This document shows positions 4,677 to 12,722 of a DNA stretch of 33,334 bases, in pieces. Source of the DNA: Bryobacterales bacterium. GTDB taxonomy: Bacteria > Acidobacteriota > Terriglobia > Bryobacterales > Bryobacteraceae. The notes beneath the pieces were generated by a model. That model did no database searches and was not told the DNA's origin. It saw nothing but the letters and a program-made list of their open reading frames with translations. The first letter of the stretch is position 1. Every line of letters begins with the position of its first letter. The stretch covers positions 1 to 33,334 of the forward strand of contig DAHVTI010000215.1 in assembly GCA_027324255.1 (NCBI GenBank), given 5' to 3'. The translations under genes were made by a program, and so were the position numbers.

Positions 4677-5342
4677 ATGCAGCCCAGTCTCGGGGAAAAA
4701 ATCTCGTTGCCTGGAGGCCAGCCGCTGGCCGCGCTCGAACCCGTGCTCCGGCACCTGGCTCACGATCTGCGCCAGCCGCTTTCCGGGATCGAGTCCATCG
4801 CCTATTACCTGGAGATGGTTCTGGCCGACGCGGAGCCCGAAATCGGGCAGCACTGCCAGCGGCTGCGGCGCATGGTGCAGCAGGCCAACTGGATTCTGAA
4901 CGATGCTTCGCTGGCGGCCCGGCTGCTGGCGAATGAGGCGGCCCCGCTGGACCTGCGCGCTTACTTCTCCCGGCTGGGCGCCAGGTTCGCGGCGCAGGAA
5001 GAGTGCACGCTCGAACTCCACTTTGACGAGCCCTTGCCCGTGATCGCCGTTCCGGAGCAGGCGCCGCGGCTGTTCGAGCACCTGCTGGCGTTCGTGCGCG
5101 ACGTGGCGCTGGCCAGCGATCCGATCCGGGTGATCGCGGTTGGAGAAGATCGCCGCGTGCGGCTGGTCTTCGAGGCCGAGACGCAATTGGATCCGGCGGA
5201 TACACTGAGGATTCTGGAAACGCCTTCCCCGGCCAGCGGCGTGCACCGGTTCTTCGAGGCTTGCGGGGGGAGCCTGGCGTCAACGGTCTCCGGCGGCGTG
5301 CTCACCCTCACCATGCTCTTTCCCGCTGTGGAGCAGGCCTAG
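4677..5342 (+). CDS. Kinase-like phosphotransfer protein with degenerate ATPase domain (ChpT/Spo0B-like)
   Basis: A 221-residue cytoplasmic protein. Residues 20-75 look like a histidine-kinase dimerisation helix pair, with an H-box HDLRQPLSGIES (His29 the candidate phosphosite). The following 130 residues have the length of a shrunken HATPase domain, but the N-box Asn, the DxGxG box and the glycine lid are not visible, so ATP binding is unlikely. Proteins of this build (ChpT, Spo0B) relay phosphate between response regulators. No sensor or TM segment is present. GAGG lies 9 nt before the ATG. Its 3' end overlaps the converging MobB-like gene by 63 nt. The alternative is a dead kinase or scaffold; the reading frame is intact. 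Confidence 0.6.
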   Translation: MQPSLGEKISLPGGQPLAALEPVLRHLAHDLRQPLSGIESIAYYLEMVLADAEPEIGQHCQRLRRMVQQANWILNDASLAARLLANEAAPLDLRAYFSRLGARFAAQEECTLELHFDEPLPVIAVPEQAPRLFEHLLAFVRDVALASDPIRVIAVGEDRRVRLVFEAETQLDPADTLRILETPSPASGVHRFFEACGGSLASTVSGGVLTLTMLFPAVEQA

Positions 5343-5717
5343 GAGCTTAGCGTTCTCGATGCGGTCCGGCGCGATGGCCAGCAGGGCGTAGTCGTGCGGG
5401 AGCAGGCGCACGGCGCGCGTCGATTCGACAATCCAGTTTTCGGCCGCGGCGAGCAGGGCCTTCAGCTCTTCCAGCCCGGCTTCGAGGTCGCCCTTGAGCC
5501 AGAAGGCCCGTGCGGCGCCGGCGGCCAGGTAGCGGCGGGTATCTCCGCTCTCTCCCGGTTCGAACTCCTCGGACAGTTCGTAGGGCGCGCCGCCGTGTGG
5601 CGCGTGGTGGCTCACCTTCACTGCCACCCAGCGGTTTTCCGGGGTCAGGCTGATGATGCGGCACACCAGGGTGGTCTTGCCCGTCTTGCGCGCCAGGCCG
5701 CCGACGATGATCCTCAT
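5280..5717 (-). CDS. Small P-loop NTPase, MobB-like
   Basis: A 145-residue protein with an N-terminal phosphate-binding loop, GGLARKTGKTTL. It resembles MobB, the GTPase that assists molybdenum guanine dinucleotide synthesis, in its small size, in the SGDTRRYLAAGA segment and in the IVEST strand end. The Walker A spacing is slightly irregular: the glycine sits one residue early. No other molybdenum cofactor gene is near, apart from the generic MoeB-type enzyme 2 kb away. Its ATG overlaps the lpxD stop by 4 nt (ATGA), so it is translated with lpxD and may instead have an envelope role. Its 3' end runs into the convergent kinase-like gene. Confidence 0.5.
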   Translation of the reverse strand: MRIIVGGLARKTGKTTLVCRIISLTPENRWVAVKVSHHAPHGGAPYELSEEFEPGESGDTRRYLAAGAARAFWLKGDLEAGLEELKALLAAAENWIVESTRAVRLLPHDYALLAIAPDRIENAKLLGLLHSGKEHGEGEHAAGDR

Positions 5718-6697
5718 TCGCCTTTGGCCTTCTCGAGTTCCGCCAGCCGGCGCTGCATTTCCTCCATATCGCGCCGCAGTTGGGGGAGCCGCGCCACGTT
5801 GGCCAGAGCCTCCAGGTATTCCTTCAGCGGGCGCGCCGGCGTACCCCAGTAGACCTCGCCGCCGCCCTTCAGGATCTTCGAGCTGAGGATGCCCGCGCCG
5901 GAGCCGACGACGGCGCCGGACTTGACGGTGACGTTGTCGCCCATGCCGACCTGGCCACCGATGACGGCGTAGTCCTCGATGACGGTGCCGCCGGCCAGTC
6001 CGGTCTGCGCGGCGATGACGACGTGCCGGCCGATGCGGCAGTTGTGGCCGATGTGAACGAGGTTGTCGAACTTGCAGCCGTCGCCCACGCTGGTGACGCC
6101 GAGCGCGGCGCGGTCGATGGTGGTGTTGGCGCCGACTTCGACGTCGTCGCCGATGACGACCCGCCCGATCTGGGGGAACTTCTCGTAGCGGCCGCGGGTG
6201 AAGACCATGCCGAAGCCGTCGGCGCCAATCACCGCGCCGGAGTGGACGACGGCGCGCGCGCCGATTTCGACGCCCGCATAGAGGGTGACGTTGGAGTGCA
6301 GCACGCTGCCGGCGCCGATCTTGACGCCGTCGCCGACGGCGCACAGCGGGCCGATGGAGACGCCTTCGCCGAGCTCGCAATCCCGGCCCAGCACCGCGCT
6401 GGGATGGATGCCGGCGGGCGGCGCCGGCGGAGGTTGCAGCAGCCGGATGACGGCGGCGCAGGCGGCGCGGGGATCCTTCACGCGGACGACCGTCCGCCCG
6501 CCGCCGTTGTCGAACTCTTCCGCTACCAGCAGGCAGCCGGCCGCCGAGGCCTGCGCGTCGCGCACCGCGCGCCTGCTGCCGACGAACGAGACGTGCTGGG
6601 CGCCGGCGAGCTCCAGGGAGGCCACGCCTTCGATCCGCTTCTCGCCGTCGCCTTCGAATGTGGCTCCGAGATGTTCCGCGATTTCCCTGACAGTCAT
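5714..6697 (-). CDS. lpxD: UDP-3-O-acylglucosamine N-acyltransferase LpxD
   Basis: A 327-residue enzyme that adds the amide-linked hydroxyacyl chain in the third step of lipid A synthesis, in the cytoplasm. Residues 1-95 form the uridine-binding N-terminal domain (TVREIAEHLGATFEG, VSFVG). Residues 97-290 are a left-handed beta-helix of hexapeptide repeats, including VIGADGFGM and VHIGHNCRIG with the likely catalytic His218. The last 35 residues are a charged helix (RRDMEEMQRRLAELEKAKGE), as in other LpxD trimers. The start at 6697 has GAGG 6 nt upstream. It is separated from lpxB, fabZ and lpxC and divergent from lpxA, unlike the usual lpxD-fabZ-lpxA order. Confidence 0.95.
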   Translation of the reverse strand: MTVREIAEHLGATFEGDGEKRIEGVASLELAGAQHVSFVGSRRAVRDAQASAAGCLLVAEEFDNGGGRTVVRVKDPRAACAAVIRLLQPPPAPPAGIHPSAVLGRDCELGEGVSIGPLCAVGDGVKIGAGSVLHSNVTLYAGVEIGARAVVHSGAVIGADGFGMVFTRGRYEKFPQIGRVVIGDDVEVGANTTIDRAALGVTSVGDGCKFDNLVHIGHNCRIGRHVVIAAQTGLAGGTVIEDYAVIGGQVGMGDNVTVKSGAVVGSGAGILSSKILKGGGEVYWGTPARPLKEYLEALANVARLPQLRRDMEEMQRRLAELEKAKGE

Positions 6698-6727
6698 GGT
6701 TCGCCTCGCTCTCCGCCGCCCGGCCTG

Positions 6728-6745
6728 TATCATACACAGTGTATG
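6728..6745. promoter_or_regulatory. Symmetric divergent promoter and palindrome between lpxD and lpxA
   Basis: Only 45 bp separate the two start codons. TATCATA at 6728-6734 reads as a -10 in both directions: TATCAT on the plus strand for lpxA and TATGAT on the minus strand for lpxD. Overlapping it, CATACAC-A-GTGTATG (6731-6745) is a perfect inverted repeat with 7-bp arms whose right arm ends in the lpxA ATG. The lpxA transcript would start at or within a few bases of its ATG; the lpxD leader would be about 25 nt with a GAGG site. A dimeric regulator on the palindrome could block both genes. Confidence 0.5.
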
Positions 6746-7531
6746 CCGGTTGATCCTTCGGCTTATGTCGCGCCGACGGCGCGCGTGCACCCCGGTGCGG
6801 TGATCGGGCCCCAAACCAGAATCGGCGAGTATTGTGTCGTCGAGGAGGAGACGGCGATCGGCTCCGGGTGCCTGCTGGAGCCGTACGTTTACGTGAAGCG
6901 CTGGACGACGCTGGGCGACCACAACGAGATCAGCGCCGGCACCGTGCTGGGCACGGATCCGCTGGACAAAAACTTCGCGGGCGCGCGCAGCTACCTGGTG
7001 ATCGGCAACGGCAACAAGATCCGCGAGCACTACACGGTGTCGCGCGGCACGGCGCCGGAGAGCAAAACGATCATCGGCGACGGCAACTACATCATGACGT
7101 CGGGCCACATCGCGCACAACGCGGTGATCGGCAACCAGACGGTGATTGCGAGCTGCTCGCTGGTGTCGGGATATGTGGAGATCGAGGACCGGGCCTTCGT
7201 CAGCGGCGGCGTGGGCATCCACCAGTTTTCGCGCATCGGCACGCTGGCGATGATCGGTGGCAGCGTGCGGGTGAACCAGGACGCGCCGCCTTACTTCCTG
7301 TACGGCGGCCTGTACCTGAAGCCCACCGGGCTGAACATCGTGGGGTTGCGCCGGGCGGGCTTCACCGCGGCCGACGTGGCCCCGATCAAGCAGGCGTACA
7401 AGCTCCTCTACCGCAGCAAGCTGAAGCTGGAAGACGCGCTGTCGCGCATCGAGGCCGAAGCCGCGACGCCGCACACGCTCCATCTGGTAAAGTTCATCAG
7501 AGGCAGCAAAAGGGGCATCTGCCGCGAGTAG
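6743..7531 (+). CDS. lpxA: UDP-N-acetylglucosamine acyltransferase LpxA
   Basis: A 262-residue enzyme (the same length as the E. coli protein) that performs the first acylation of lipid A synthesis. Hexapeptide-repeat beta-helix occupies residues 1-190 and a helical C-terminal domain follows. His122 and His125 in GHIAHNAVIGN match the position of the E. coli catalytic His125, and KIREHYTVSRGT is the family substrate loop. The ATG at 6743 has no Shine-Dalgarno and lies directly behind a -10, so the message may be leaderless. The stop codon is 10 nt before the TolC-type gene, whose ribosome site overlaps the lpxA stop, so lipid A synthesis and export are probably co-transcribed. Confidence 0.95.
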   Translation: MPVDPSAYVAPTARVHPGAVIGPQTRIGEYCVVEEETAIGSGCLLEPYVYVKRWTTLGDHNEISAGTVLGTDPLDKNFAGARSYLVIGNGNKIREHYTVSRGTAPESKTIIGDGNYIMTSGHIAHNAVIGNQTVIASCSLVSGYVEIEDRAFVSGGVGIHQFSRIGTLAMIGGSVRVNQDAPPYFLYGGLYLKPTGLNIVGLRRAGFTAADVAPIKQAYKLLYRSKLKLEDALSRIEAEAATPHTLHLVKFIRGSKRGICRE

Positions 7532-7541
7532 GAGGCTGGAA

Positions 7542-8864
7542 GTGCGGATCACCGTGGTTGTGCTGGGCGGAGCGCTCTGCGTTTGCCCGCTGATGGCGCA
7601 GTGGACGCTGCAGGACGTGGTGCGCCGGGCGGGCGAGAAGTACGCGGGTGTGCAGGTGTCGTTCGAGCAGGCGGCAGCGGCGGCGGCGGCGGTGCAGCAG
7701 GCGCGCACGGCTTTTCTGCCGCGCGGCGACTTCTACGCGCAGGTGAACCGCGCGACACGGAACAACGTCTTTGGCATGCTGCTGCCGAATCCGGTGATTC
7801 CCTCGATTTCGGGACCGCCGCAAACAGCCAATGCGGGCACCAGCGTGTGCGGCTCGGCCACGGGGTTCCTGGTGCAGTGGGAGCCTTTCGACCTGGGCCA
7901 GCGCGGCGCGAAGGTGGCGAGTGCGGACGCGGGGCGCCGGCGCGCGGAGCGCACCTACGCGCGCACGCGATTCGAAGTGGAAGCCGCCGCGGCGGATGCG
8001 TACCTGACGGTGCTGGCCGCCGACCAGACGGTGAGCGGCGGGAAGGCGGCCGTGGAGCGCGCACGAAGCCTGTATGCGATGGCCGCCGCGCAGGCGGAAG
8101 CAGGCCTGCGGCCGGAGGCGGACGCGTCGCGCGCCAAGGCCGAACTGGCGGCGGCGGAGGCGCAGTTGATCCTGGCCGAGCAAGCGGCACGGACGGCGCG
8201 CATCGGCGTAACGCAGTGGACGGGCGACCGCTGGGATGCGGTGAAGCTGCAATCGAAGCTGGCGGTGAAGGATCCCGCCGCGCCCCCCGCGACGGGCGGC
8301 GCGCACCCCGCTGTGCGCGAGCAGGAAGAGGCCGTTCTGGAAGCGGCCAGCCGCCGGCACGAAGCGGACATCGCCTGGCGGCCGCGCTTCAACACGCAAA
8401 CGGCGCTGTATGCGCGCGGCACGGGCGACGCCGCGCAGATCGGGCCCCACTTCTACAATTGGGGCATCGGTTTCAGCGTGCTATTTCCCTTTCTGGACCT
8501 GCCTTCGATCCGCGCGCAGCAGCAGGTGGAGAAGCACAAAGTGCTGGCGGAGGAGGCGCGGCTGAAGCAGGTTTCCGCGGACCTGGACGCGCAACTGGAG
8601 CGGGCCCGGGCGGCGCTGGACGCGGCAAATCGGATCGCCGGGACGACGCCGGTGCTGCTGGAGGCGGCAAGCGCGGCCCATGCGCAGGCGCGGGCGCGTT
8701 ACCAGTCCGGCCTGGCCAGCATCGTCGAGGTATCCGACGCGCAGCGGCTGCTGTTGCAGGCGGAGGTGGACCAGTCGCTGGCGCGGCTCAACGTGTGGCG
8801 GGCGCAACTGGCCTTCGCCGTGGCGGCGGGCGACCTGGAGCCGTTTCTGGAGGCCGCGCGATGA
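7542..8864 (+). CDS. TolC-family outer membrane efflux protein
   Basis: A 440-residue outer-membrane channel subunit. It has a signal peptide (MRITVVVLGGALCVCPLMAQ), followed by two repeats of the long-helix outer membrane factor domain, rich in Ala/Gln/Glu coiled coil (about 30-200 and 260-430). The region around residues 70-110 (NNVFGMLLPNPVIPS and the following loop) matches the first beta-strand pair, and ARYQSGLASIVEVSDAQ is the family's second-repeat motif. AGGAGG sits 6 nt before the GTG start. It shares an ATGA overlap with the RND pump gene. The partner pump and adaptor follow directly, so a complete tripartite system is encoded. Confidence 0.9.
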   Translation: MRITVVVLGGALCVCPLMAQWTLQDVVRRAGEKYAGVQVSFEQAAAAAAAVQQARTAFLPRGDFYAQVNRATRNNVFGMLLPNPVIPSISGPPQTANAGTSVCGSATGFLVQWEPFDLGQRGAKVASADAGRRRAERTYARTRFEVEAAAADAYLTVLAADQTVSGGKAAVERARSLYAMAAAQAEAGLRPEADASRAKAELAAAEAQLILAEQAARTARIGVTQWTGDRWDAVKLQSKLAVKDPAAPPATGGAHPAVREQEEAVLEAASRRHEADIAWRPRFNTQTALYARGTGDAAQIGPHFYNWGIGFSVLFPFLDLPSIRAQQQVEKHKVLAEEARLKQVSADLDAQLERARAALDAANRIAGTTPVLLEAASAAHAQARARYQSGLASIVEVSDAQRLLLQAEVDQSLARLNVWRAQLAFAVAAGDLEPFLEAAR

Positions 8865-11800
8865 AGCTCGTCCATTTCGCACTTTCCCGGCCCGTCACCA
8901 TCACCGTGATCGTTCTGGCCGTCGCGCTGTTCGCCGGCCTGGCGGTGGTCCGCATGCCCGTGGACATTTTCCCCAAGCTGGGCGATCCGGCCATCTACGT
9001 CGCGCAGCCTTACGGCGGCATGGACCCTTCGCAGATGGAGGGCTTCCTGACGTACTACTTCGAGTACCACTTCCTGTACATCACCGGCATCGAGCACGTC
9101 GAGAGCAAGAGCATCCAGGGCGCCTCGCTGATGAAGCTGGTGTTCCACCCGCGGACGGACATGAGCTCCGCCATGGCGGAGGTGGTGGGCTACGTCAACC
9201 GCGCCCGCGCTTTCATGCCGCCGGGCACGGTGGGGCCGTTCATCACGCGCTTCGACGCCGGCAGCGTGCCGGTGGCGCAACTCGTGTTCACCAGCGACAA
9301 GCGCAGCGCCGGGGAACTGCAGGACATCGCGTTGAACCGGGTGCGGCCGCTATTTGCCACGCTGGAGGGCGTCTCGGCTCCGCCGCCATTCGGGGGGAAC
9401 CAGAAGACCATCGTGGTGCGGGCGCAGCCCGAGAAGCTGCGGCAGTACCGCATTTCGCCGGAAGAGCTGATGGCCGCCGTGAACCGCGCCAGCGCCGTGA
9501 TGCCTTCGGGCAACGTGCGGGCCGGCGACATCAACTACATCGCCTCCACCAACGCCGTGCTCGGCGCGAAGCTCGACGACCTGCTCGACGCGCCGGTGCG
9601 GCGCGGCGTGTGGCTGCGCGACGTGGCGACGATTGAAACCGGGACGGACATCGTCACGGGCTACGCGCACGTGAACGGGCGGCGGACTGTCTACATCCAG
9701 GTGACCAAGCGCGCCGACGCTTCCGCGCTGCGCGTAATCGAGCGCGTGAAGAACGAGCTGCCGGAGATGCGCAAGGTGGTGCCGGACGACGTGCGCGTGA
9801 CATTGGAGTTCGACCAGTCCGGCTACGTGGCCTCGGCCATCCGCAACCTGTCGTTCGAAGCGGTGCTGGGCGCGCTGCTGACCGGCCTGGCCGTGCTGTT
9901 GTTCCTGCGCGACTGGCGCGGGGCGCTGATCGTTATCACCACGATTCCCGTCTCCCTGTTGTCGGCGCTCGTGTGGCTGTGGGCGTTCGGACAGACCATC
10001 AACATCATGACGCTGGGAGGGCTGGCCCTGGCGGTGGGCGTGCTTGTGGACGAGGCCACGGTGGAGATCGAGAACATCCACTCGCACATGGCGTCGGGCC
10101 TCAAGCGGGCCGAGGCCGTGTTGGAGGCGTGCCGCAAGACGGCCACGCCGCGGCTGCTGGCCATGGTCTCCGTGCTGGCCGTGTTCGTGCCCGCCTACTT
10201 CATGACGGGCGTGGTGCGGCAGTTGTTCTGGCCGCTGGCGCTGGCCGTGGGGTGCGCAATGGTGTCGTCGTACCTGCTGTCGAGCACCCTGGTGCCGCTG
10301 ATGGCGTCACGCCTGCTGAGGGCCCACGTGGACGACCGCGTGCGAACGGCCGGCATCTACGGGCGCTACATCTCGCTGGTGCTGCGCTGGCGCTACCTGC
10401 TGGCGCCGTTCTACCTGGTGACCGCAGCGGGCCTGCTGTGGCTGCTGGCGCCGCGTCTGGGCCGCGAAGTGTTTCCGCCGGCGGGCGAGGAGATTTTCCA
10501 ATTGAGAATGCGTGCCGCCACGGGCACGCGCATTGAAAAGTCCGAGCAACTGTTGCTGAAGACTCTGGACGTGATCCAGCGCGAAGCCGGCAAGGACAAT
10601 GTGGCCATCTCCACCGGCTTCATCGGCGTGCAGCCGGCGAGCTACCCGATCAACACGATCTACCTCTGGACCAGCGGTCCGCAGGAGGCGGTGCTCAAAG
10701 TGGCGCTGAAGAGAGATGCGCCGCTGAAAGGCGAAGCCCTGCAGGAGCGGCTGCGGGCGCGCCTGAAAGCGGAGCTGCCCGGGGTCGCCTTCAGTTTTGA
10801 GCCGGGCGACATCGTCGGGCAGGTGATGAGCTTCGGTTCGGCGGCGCCGGTGGAGGTGGCGGTACAGGGACCGAACGTGGCCAACAGCCGCGCGCATGCC
10901 GCCAGGGTGAAGGCGGAGCTCGAGAAGATTCCTTCGCTGCGCGACCTGCAGTACGCGCAGGCGCTGGACTACCCCGTGATGGACGTCAAGATCGACCGGC
11001 GCAAGGCCGGCGAATTCGGGCTGACGATGGCGCAGGTGGCGAAGTCGATGGTGGCGGCGACGTCTTCGTCGCGCTTCGTCGAGCCCAACTACTGGCGCGA
11101 CCCGGCCAGCGGCAACGCGTTCCAGATCCAGGTGGAGATTCCGTATCAGCGCATGGATTCGCCCGATGCGCTGAGGGCCTTGCCGGTGATGTCCGGCGGC
11201 GAGGCGCGCCCGCTGCTGGGCGACGTCGCCACCGTGAGCGAGAGCAAGGCGATGGGGCTGGTGGAGCGCTACAACATGCAGCGGGTGGTGAGCCTGACGG
11301 CCAACATCCACGGCGAGACGCTGAGCGAAGCGGCGGCGGACATCGAACGGGCCATCGCCCGGGCGGGCGAGCCGCCGAAGGGCGTATCGGTGAAAGTGCG
11401 CGGCCAGATCCCGCCGTTGCAGGAGACGGAGACGAACCTGAAGTACGGCATCGCGGCCTCGCTGGTCGCCATCTTCCTGCTGCTGAGCGCGTTTTTTGAG
11501 AGCTTCCGGATCGGCCTGGCGGTGGTGCTGACCGGCCCGGCGGTGCTGGTGGGGGTGGTGCTGGCGCTGCTGGCTACTGGTACCACGTTGAACGTGCAGT
11601 CCTTCCTGGGCGCGGTGATGGCGACGGGCATCGCGGTGGCGAACTCGATTCTGCTGTGCTCGTTCGCCGAGCGCGCGCGCAAGGAGGGAGCGGACATTTC
11701 TGAGGCGGCTCACGGCGCGGCCGTGGGGCGGCTGCGGGCCATCCTGATGACGGCCACGGCCATGACGGCGGGCATGCTGCCCATGGCGTTGGGCCTGGGC

Positions 11801-11944
11801 GAGGGCGGAGCACAAACGGCGCCACTGGGCCGCGCGGTGATCGGCGGCCTGGCGGCGGCGACGGTGGCCACTCTCACCGTGCTGCCCGCCATTTACGCGG
11901 TAGTGATGAAGGGAACGGAGAGGAGCAGCGATGAAGTGGCTTAG
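8861..11944 (+). CDS. RND-family efflux pump inner membrane subunit
   Basis: A 1027-residue proton-driven transporter of the AcrB/CusA superfamily: an N-terminal TM helix, a porter domain, TM2-6 (about 330-480), a second porter domain, and TM8-12 (about 870-1015). The TM4 proton-relay motif reads VDEATVEIEN (396-405): Asp397 is conserved but the second acid is Glu398 where AcrB has Asp408. It starts MKLVHFALSRPVTITV, a normal RND N-terminus. The CusA/CzcA methionine and charged metal relay is not obvious, so a heavy-metal role is not supported; substrate is unknown. It overlaps the upstream gene by 4 nt and the adaptor by 14 nt. Confidence 0.92.
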   Translation: MKLVHFALSRPVTITVIVLAVALFAGLAVVRMPVDIFPKLGDPAIYVAQPYGGMDPSQMEGFLTYYFEYHFLYITGIEHVESKSIQGASLMKLVFHPRTDMSSAMAEVVGYVNRARAFMPPGTVGPFITRFDAGSVPVAQLVFTSDKRSAGELQDIALNRVRPLFATLEGVSAPPPFGGNQKTIVVRAQPEKLRQYRISPEELMAAVNRASAVMPSGNVRAGDINYIASTNAVLGAKLDDLLDAPVRRGVWLRDVATIETGTDIVTGYAHVNGRRTVYIQVTKRADASALRVIERVKNELPEMRKVVPDDVRVTLEFDQSGYVASAIRNLSFEAVLGALLTGLAVLLFLRDWRGALIVITTIPVSLLSALVWLWAFGQTINIMTLGGLALAVGVLVDEATVEIENIHSHMASGLKRAEAVLEACRKTATPRLLAMVSVLAVFVPAYFMTGVVRQLFWPLALAVGCAMVSSYLLSSTLVPLMASRLLRAHVDDRVRTAGIYGRYISLVLRWRYLLAPFYLVTAAGLLWLLAPRLGREVFPPAGEEIFQLRMRAATGTRIEKSEQLLLKTLDVIQREAGKDNVAISTGFIGVQPASYPINTIYLWTSGPQEAVLKVALKRDAPLKGEALQERLRARLKAELPGVAFSFEPGDIVGQVMSFGSAAPVEVAVQGPNVANSRAHAARVKAELEKIPSLRDLQYAQALDYPVMDVKIDRRKAGEFGLTMAQVAKSMVAATSSSRFVEPNYWRDPASGNAFQIQVEIPYQRMDSPDALRALPVMSGGEARPLLGDVATVSESKAMGLVERYNMQRVVSLTANIHGETLSEAAADIERAIARAGEPPKGVSVKVRGQIPPLQETETNLKYGIAASLVAIFLLLSAFFESFRIGLAVVLTGPAVLVGVVLALLATGTTLNVQSFLGAVMATGIAVANSILLCSFAERARKEGADISEAAHGAAVGRLRAILMTATAMTAGMLPMALGLGEGGAQTAPLGRAVIGGLAAATVATLTVLPAIYAVVMKGTERSSDEVA

Positions 11945-12722
11945 CGCGCTGGTGGCCCTGGCCGCCATGGGACAGACGGGCAAACTGCCGGCCGAGCTGG
12001 CGCCCTACCAGAAAGTGACCGTGCGGGCGCGCGTCGCCGGCACCGTGGAAAAGGTGCTGGTGGACCGCGGGAGTGTCGTGAAAGAGGGAGACCTGCTGGT
12101 GGAACTCTCCGCGCCCGAGATGCAGGCCCAGATCGCCGAAGCCGAGGCGCGCGCGCAGGCGATTGAAGCGCAGCGGGCCGAGGCGGAGGCGAAGCTGGCG
12201 GGGCTCGAAAGTACGCTCGAGAAGCTCAGGACGGCGGCGGCCACGCCAGGCGCGGTGGCGGCCAACGACGTGGTGCAGGCGGCCAAACAGGTGGACGCCA
12301 CCCGCGCCCTCATCGCGGCCATCGGGAAGAGCGCTTCGGCGGCGCGCGCGCAGGCCAAGGTGCTCTCGGAGATGCAGGCGTACCTTCGGATCACGGCCCC
12401 GTTTGCCGGGGTGATCACGGCAAGACTCGTCGATCGCGGCGCGCTGGCCGGAGGCCCGCTGCTCGAACTCGAGCAGGTGTCGCGGCTGCGGCTGGTGGTG
12501 CTGGTGCCGGAGAGCGAATGGAAAAACACGGCGCGCGGGGTGCGCGTGAACTTCACGGTGGCTTCGCACGGTGACCGCGTCTTCAGCGGCACGGTGGTGC
12601 GCATCTCGCGCTCGCTGGACGTGAAGACCCGCGCCATGGCCGTGGAGGCCGACGTCGATAATTCATCGGGAGCGCTGGCCCCGGGCATGTACGCCGAAGC
12701 TACGCTTGCCGTGAAGAAGTAG
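11931..12722 (+). CDS. RND efflux periplasmic adaptor (membrane fusion protein), short form
   Basis: A 263-residue adaptor linking pump to outer-membrane channel. It has a short N-terminal signal (MKWLSALVALAAMGQTG), a lipoyl half (VTVRARVAGTVEKVLVDRGSVVKEGDLL), an Ala/Glu-rich hairpin of about 100 residues, the second lipoyl half (LRITAPFAGVITARLVDRGAL), then a beta-barrel ending APGMYAEATLAVKK. It stops where the membrane-proximal domain would begin, about 100 residues shorter than AcrA-type adaptors. The end is not frayed, so this looks like a natural short form. The order outer-membrane factor, pump, adaptor is less common than adaptor first. AGGAG precedes the ATG within the pump gene's 3' end. 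Confidence 0.88.
   Translation: MKWLSALVALAAMGQTGKLPAELAPYQKVTVRARVAGTVEKVLVDRGSVVKEGDLLVELSAPEMQAQIAEAEARAQAIEAQRAEAEAKLAGLESTLEKLRTAAATPGAVAANDVVQAAKQVDATRALIAAIGKSASAARAQAKVLSEMQAYLRITAPFAGVITARLVDRGALAGGPLLELEQVSRLRLVVLVPESEWKNTARGVRVNFTVASHGDRVFSGTVVRISRSLDVKTRAMAVEADVDNSSGALAPGMYAEATLAVKK

Follow-up and report, generated by a model that had tools for sequence, protein, structure and literature searches.

A predicted bidirectional promoter with one near-symmetric -10 element between the divergent lpxD and lpxA genes of a Bryobacterales bacterium and its relatives

The window, a 33,334-nucleotide stretch of DNA from a Bryobacterales bacterium (assembly GCA_027324255.1, contig DAHVTI010000215.1), encodes LpxA and LpxD on opposite strands, with 45 bp between the divergent start codons (Table 1). 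Both predicted proteins exceed the NCBIfam equivalog cut-offs for their families. The assembly comprises 6.17 Mb in 605 contigs and is designated G000, or the own genome, below, where the gene pair is found on contig C329. Downstream of lpxA, positions 7542-12722 encode on the same strand a TolC-like protein (below the model cut-off), an RND-like frame and an RND adaptor; the long frame has the look of an RND transporter by eye, and the adaptor scores above its cut-off. The frame following lpxD on the minus strand (5280-5717) starts with MRIIVGGLARKTGKTTL and resembles a P-loop protein by eye, with no match in Pfam. An Rfam search of the window returned two tRNAs and nothing else.

Table 1. 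Positions of genes, sequence elements and predicted transcription starts in the lpxD-lpxA region of the window
Feature	Position	Strand	Basis or remark
lpxD, 327 aa	5714..6697	-	TIGR01853, 280.1 bits (cut-off 242.5); one of two LpxD paralogues
Shine-Dalgarno-like GAGG of lpxD	6704..6707	-	6 nt before the lpxD ATG
Predicted lpxD transcription start	6721..6722	-	24-25 nt leader; inferred from geometry
11-bp dyad TGTATCATACA	6726..6736, centre 6731		symmetric unit including the -10
Symmetric -10 box TATCATA	6728..6734	both	sequence; TATNATA conservation in orthologous loci
Palindrome CATACACAGTGTATG	6731..6745		perfect 7-bp arms about a central A; judged a local coincidence
Predicted lpxA transcription start region	6739..6743	+	0-4 nt leader; inferred from geometry
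lpxA, 262 aa	6743..7531	+	TIGR01852, 270.2 bits (cut-off 231.05); one of two LpxA paralogues

The heptamer TATCATA between the two genes reads as TATCAT on the plus strand (6728-6733) and as TATGAT on the minus strand (6734-6729), and each hexamer matches TATAAT at five of six positions. An earlier note on this DNA had pointed out that the heptamer could be read as a -10 on both strands, and the sequence confirms this. Bidirectional -10 elements have been defined by overlapping hexamers on opposite strands with reciprocal -11/-7 positions (PMC10268837, available in part), and TATCATA has this structure. A further criterion for promoters of this kind is that the divergent transcription starts are 7-25 bp apart; with a spacing of 7 bp from each hexamer, the starts in the window would be at 6722 and 6740, 18 bp apart. 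The lpxA ATG is located 9 nt past the plus-strand hexamer, and no Shine-Dalgarno-like word precedes it. No -35-like hexamer was found at 16-18 bp from the box on either strand (best match 2/6), and a generic consensus promoter scan of positions 5800-7800 reported no promoter, so any promoter activity would rest on the -10.

Orthologous loci were collected for comparison. An lpxA match was found in all 101 genomes searched, and upstream DNA was taken from 70 of them (30 loci and 40 stretches). To these we added 80 named lpxA loci, the best 80 of 171, and the nearest named relatives were labelled Bryobacteraceae / Bryobacterales or Acidobacteria. Removal of duplicates gave 125 distinct loci, 66 with lpxD divergent within 80 bp and 59 without. 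Loci lacking a start codon at the aligned position (two divergent and 11 non-divergent) were left out of the counts, giving 64 and 48. The rows are related and some are nearly identical, with pairs such as L070/L077 and L015/L038 retained, and the locus counts given below are therefore not independent. A quick lpxA tree was made of 95 rows, and 40 of its 92 inner branches are drawn open.

By the measure that we set ourselves, retention of the box among divergent relatives, the element is conserved: TATNATA is present between the genes in 35 of the 64 divergent lpxD-lpxA loci, against 0.64 expected from dinucleotide shuffles. When the best hexamer was taken at each locus, 54 of the 64 divergent loci and 20 of the 48 non-divergent ones had a -10-like hexamer 4-11 nt before lpxA. 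Among these 54 divergent loci, its distance to the lpxA start is exactly 8 nt at 35 loci and 9 nt at eight. Two observations count against a box shared by both genes: ten of the 64 divergent loci are without a -10-like box near lpxA, and some (L023, L096 and L132) have a separate box for each gene. The 95-row lpxA tree requires a minimum of 12 changes between C and G at the centre of the box and a minimum of 10 changes in gap class. A centre base that is free to be C or G has the look of a two-way -10, although a one-way -10 may tolerate this too. Nine divergent loci (L104, L097, L119, L092, L101, L102, L108, L111 and L112) are without TATSATA and have in common the motifs CATAGTTAACAT or CATACTTAGCAT, possibly representing a different promoter arrangement.

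The lpxD side of the region varies with the position of the box. TANNNTA is found 5-9 nt before lpxA in 35 divergent loci, where the distance from the mirrored hexamer to the lpxD ATG is 5-9 nt in 10, 12 nt in two and 20-62 nt in 23. None of the 12 loci with the mirrored hexamer 5-12 nt away has a Shine-Dalgarno-like word before lpxD, versus 21 of the 23 with the hexamer at 20-62 nt (Fisher 1e-7, with relatedness ignored), a contrast that is partly forced, since such a word hardly fits where the box abuts lpxD. Intergenic gaps of 18 bp (L015 and L038), 19 bp (L024), 21 bp (L070) and 22 bp (L109) hold little besides the box, and both genes would consequently be leaderless in such loci.

On the lpxA side, a Shine-Dalgarno-like word is nearly absent throughout, being found in one of 64 divergent and one of 48 non-divergent loci. 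A published survey describes a TANNNT signal some 12 bp before the start codon of leaderless genes in bacteria, and lists such genes in three of three acidobacterial genomes, with a mean of 13.3% (PMC3160421, available in part). The lpxA gene of the window agrees with this description, having a -10 directly upstream of its ATG and no Shine-Dalgarno-like word. Unlike the genes described in the available part of that survey, it would share one box with a divergent gene, and both genes would be leaderless in some relatives. The spacing of 8-9 nt places the expected transcription start at the lpxA ATG or 1-4 nt before it, and the lpxA message probably begins right at the protein start codon or nearly so. 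The earlier suggestion of a nearly leaderless lpxA thus gains support from the conserved box and spacing and from the near absence of a Shine-Dalgarno-like word.

Leaderless starts seem to be ordinary in this group, as judged from genome samples. In samples of the own genome, TANNNT was found 11 times at a spacing of 7-9 before 143 candidate ATGs, compared with about 0.7 at each of the other positions. Samples of genome G006 with 319 candidates gave 10, 2, 2 and 8 occurrences at spacings of 6, 7, 8 and 9, compared with about 1.9 at each of the others. As a leaderless signal, the exact box is uncommon in the own genome, since TATSATA 6-8 nt before any ATG gave three hits there versus two control hits.

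The geometry of the region, its conservation and the switch in lpxD Shine-Dalgarno use with box distance are all seen directly in the loci compared. We consider it likely that the lpxD-lpxA intergenic region is a bidirectional promoter of the sigma-70 type, with one near-symmetric -10 used in both directions and an lpxA that is leaderless or nearly so. Transcription of both strands, the start sites and competition between the directions are predicted as follows. RNA polymerase would bind TATCATA in either orientation. Rightward transcription would start at the lpxA ATG or within about 4 nt of it, giving a leaderless or nearly leaderless mRNA, and the leftward transcript would have a short leader of about 24 nt upstream of the lpxD ATG, including the Shine-Dalgarno word GAGG. 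Opposite bindings of the polymerase would be mutually exclusive, so that competition between the directions is expected instead of a joint increase through one regulator. The earlier note had proposed one symmetric -10 driving both genes. Box placement, conservation and the lpxD Shine-Dalgarno pattern support this proposal as far as the shared element is concerned; the driving itself is a prediction from sequence.

Bidirectional promoters with a shared symmetric -10 have reportedly been described in E. coli and Salmonella by Warman, Grainger and colleagues. Bidirectional -10s are established in these organisms, where the commonest spacing of the starts is 18 bp (PMC12825309, available in part, and PMC10268837). 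Polymerases in opposite orientations exclude each other at a bidirectional promoter, and basal activity at the promoters tested was too low for competition unless one direction was activated (PMC12825309). As far as the available text of these papers goes, the region studied here resembles those promoters in having one two-strand -10 and, by prediction, an 18-bp spacing of the starts. It differs from them in that the box is flanked by two protein start codons, one or both of which would have a very short leader or none at all, and in its repeated presence at this locus among members of a bacterial family. A bidirectional promoter is thus a known kind of element, and the leaderless form conserved at lipid A genes of Bryobacteraceae would be what is new. 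A search of titles and abstracts, limited to the open-licence literature of PubMed Central, found no description of bidirectional -10s combined with leaderless starts, and no dRNA-seq study of Acidobacteria. Bidirectional -10s are known from maps of transcription starts, and a case that recurs and is conserved between a pair of protein genes would add leaderless starts to them. In loci with a spacing of 18-22 bp, the joint effect of polymerase competition and leaderless translation could be addressed by altering bases of the one box.

The box could instead be the leaderless promoter of lpxA alone, with the lpxD promoter inside lpxA and the symmetry arising because any -10 is roughly symmetric. 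We regard this as unlikely, although several observations fit it. Four of eight genus-mates (L004, L006, L007 and L012) have TATCATT, that is AATGAT toward lpxD, which speaks against a two-way box, and lpxA loci without divergent lpxD keep such boxes too (TANNAT in 11 of 40 non-divergent tree rows). An A as the seventh base provides the lpxD strand with a T at -12. Among the tree rows with TANNAT, 28 of the 40 divergent ones have this A, as do 4 of the 11 that are non-divergent. This enrichment is weak (Fisher p 0.075), and no clear link between the seventh base and divergence emerges. Well-supported branches provided four and three pairs for independent-pairs tests, which likewise gave no significant association with divergence. 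Of the 13 leaderless candidates listed from the genome samples, 7 also have an A at this position, and we rejected it as proof of bidirectionality because it does not discriminate. The two-way reading consequently rests on geometry, conservation and the pattern of leaders and Shine-Dalgarno words. Against a box serving lpxA only are the 10 loci with very short intergenic regions in which the mirrored hexamer comes within 5-9 nt of the lpxD ATG, the presence of a box beside lpxD with none beside lpxA in L126 and L099, and the way in which lpxD Shine-Dalgarno use tracks the box distance.

Divergent operons under one palindromic operator are a generally known arrangement, and the region shares with them two divergent genes with a palindrome in between. 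The palindrome that the earlier note had described as overlapping the -10 and holding the lpxA ATG is present exactly so, its last three bases being the start codon (6743-6745). That it is an operator for a dimeric regulator controlling both genes is nevertheless very unlikely. Odd palindromes with perfect 7-bp arms number 12 in the window, the one at lpxA included, against a mean of 5.0 (range 1-8) in 20 approximate dinucleotide shuffles of the window; such palindromes are if anything common here, with 11 comparable ones elsewhere, and the one at lpxA is unremarkable. Furthermore, three of its seven pairs are formed by the CAT of the -10 box facing the ATG start codon and hence come free.

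The earlier note had called for a check of whether the palindrome arms are conserved among relatives, and they are not. In the same register in 63 divergent loci with an ATG start, all seven pairs are formed in two (the window and L114, from G008) and six of seven in L113 (from G007). The sequence CATACACNGTGTATG is present in two of 61 genomes, the own genome included, at one place each and in both cases at lpxA; besides G008, none of the other seven genus-mates has the exact palindrome motif. With up to two mismatches allowed, the own genome has one other site, at two mismatches, and thus no second exact site; further sites would not be required of a regulator with a single target. In favour of an operator, the palindrome is perfect in the window and G008 and formed at six of seven pairs in G007, though among the eight genus-mates G007 and G008 are the lowest in LpxA identity (65-66%). 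After the searches of the own genome, the 61 genomes and the 63 loci in the same register, the palindrome was rejected as an operator. In contrast to divergent operons of the known type, no conserved operator and no further sites were found in these searches, and with no sign of a regulon the single dimeric protein proposed earlier is not accepted, leaving a small probability for a regulator with this one target.

It is also highly improbable that the dyad TTGTATSATACAA is not a promoter box but a conserved operator serving a single dedicated regulator: the flanking G and C at the box edges do mirror each other (22 and 29 of 31 cores) and the full 13-mer is found at lpxA in L033, L035, L078 and L125, but pair matches outside the 7-mer are near the expectation from column composition (23 vs 20.8 and 15 vs 11.7), the exact 13-mer is present in one of 61 genomes and away from lpxA there (the genomes of L078 and L125 are outside the 61), and the fixed distance from box to lpxA start fits a promoter. 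The dyad at 6726-6736 is the sole exact occurrence of TGTATSATACA in the 6.17-Mb assembly, and a search of the own genome for a dyad regulon gave four one-mismatch sites versus three control hits per strand.

The own genome encodes a second LpxA, in a fabZ-lpxA-lpxI cluster (contig C334), and a second LpxD (contig C315). The second copies score higher than those of the window, with 325.6 versus 287.2 bits for LpxA against PRK05289 and 356.3 versus 311.8 bits for LpxD against PRK00892. The lpxA and lpxD of the window are thus a paralogous set, the lower-scoring of the two; duplications of lpxA and lpxD are known in other bacteria (PMC3087551, available in part). The presence of a second, higher-scoring LpxA and LpxD makes control of total lipid A flux from the promoter in the window uncertain. 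The earlier idea that flux would be set at the first and third steps together is further weakened by the expectation that transcription in the two directions from a shared -10 is mutually exclusive (PMC12825309).

The fabZ-lpxA-lpxI cluster (G000:C334, L164:2857-3347) diverges from an M20-peptidase-like gene, whose NCBIfam matches are below curated cut-offs. In the own genome, 25 bp separate the two start codons and contain a TANNNTA box. We surveyed this gene pair in the own genome and 20 hand-picked genomes, giving 21 loci. The start codons are 22-25 bp apart in 14 of these, with 12 distinct intergenic sequences; in the remaining loci, the peptidase-like gene is missing from the fetched stretch (five) or more than 400 bp away (two). 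TANNNTA is present between the genes in all 14 adjacent loci, and a Shine-Dalgarno-like word is present on neither side in any of them. The box is 8-11 nt from the fabZ start, making a leader of a few nucleotides likely.

We tentatively propose, with somewhat less than even confidence, that some lipid A loci of Bryobacteraceae have promoters reaching from start codon to start codon, in which about 18-25 bp would contain little besides one symmetric TANNNTA and be flanked on both sides by genes with no leader or almost none, and in which exclusive polymerase binding would fix the product ratio without a regulator or leader. The cases covered are lpxD-lpxA in some relatives and the peptidase-like gene with fabZ-lpxA in 14 of the 21 loci. 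If true, these would represent a minimal natural system in which polymerase competition and leaderless translation jointly set the ratio of two enzymes.

A pattern of two ATGs, each 5-10 nt from TANNNTA, gave no hits in 189 kb of the own genome and one in 400 kb of G006. Control cores in the same pattern gave none in the own genome and 0-3 in G006, so the double pattern with TANNNTA is not enriched in these 589 kb, and the exact-length doubly leaderless pattern is likewise absent from the own genome. The 5-10 nt pattern is too strict for the fabZ pair of the own genome, where one of the two distances is 11 nt. The lack of enrichment of the strict pattern gives no evidence that the design is common genome-wide.

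The second lpxD of the own genome (C315; L163:3373-3455) diverges from a small predicted gene, for which no NCBIfam match was found, and the 77 bp between them contain TATATTA, a TANNNTA box.
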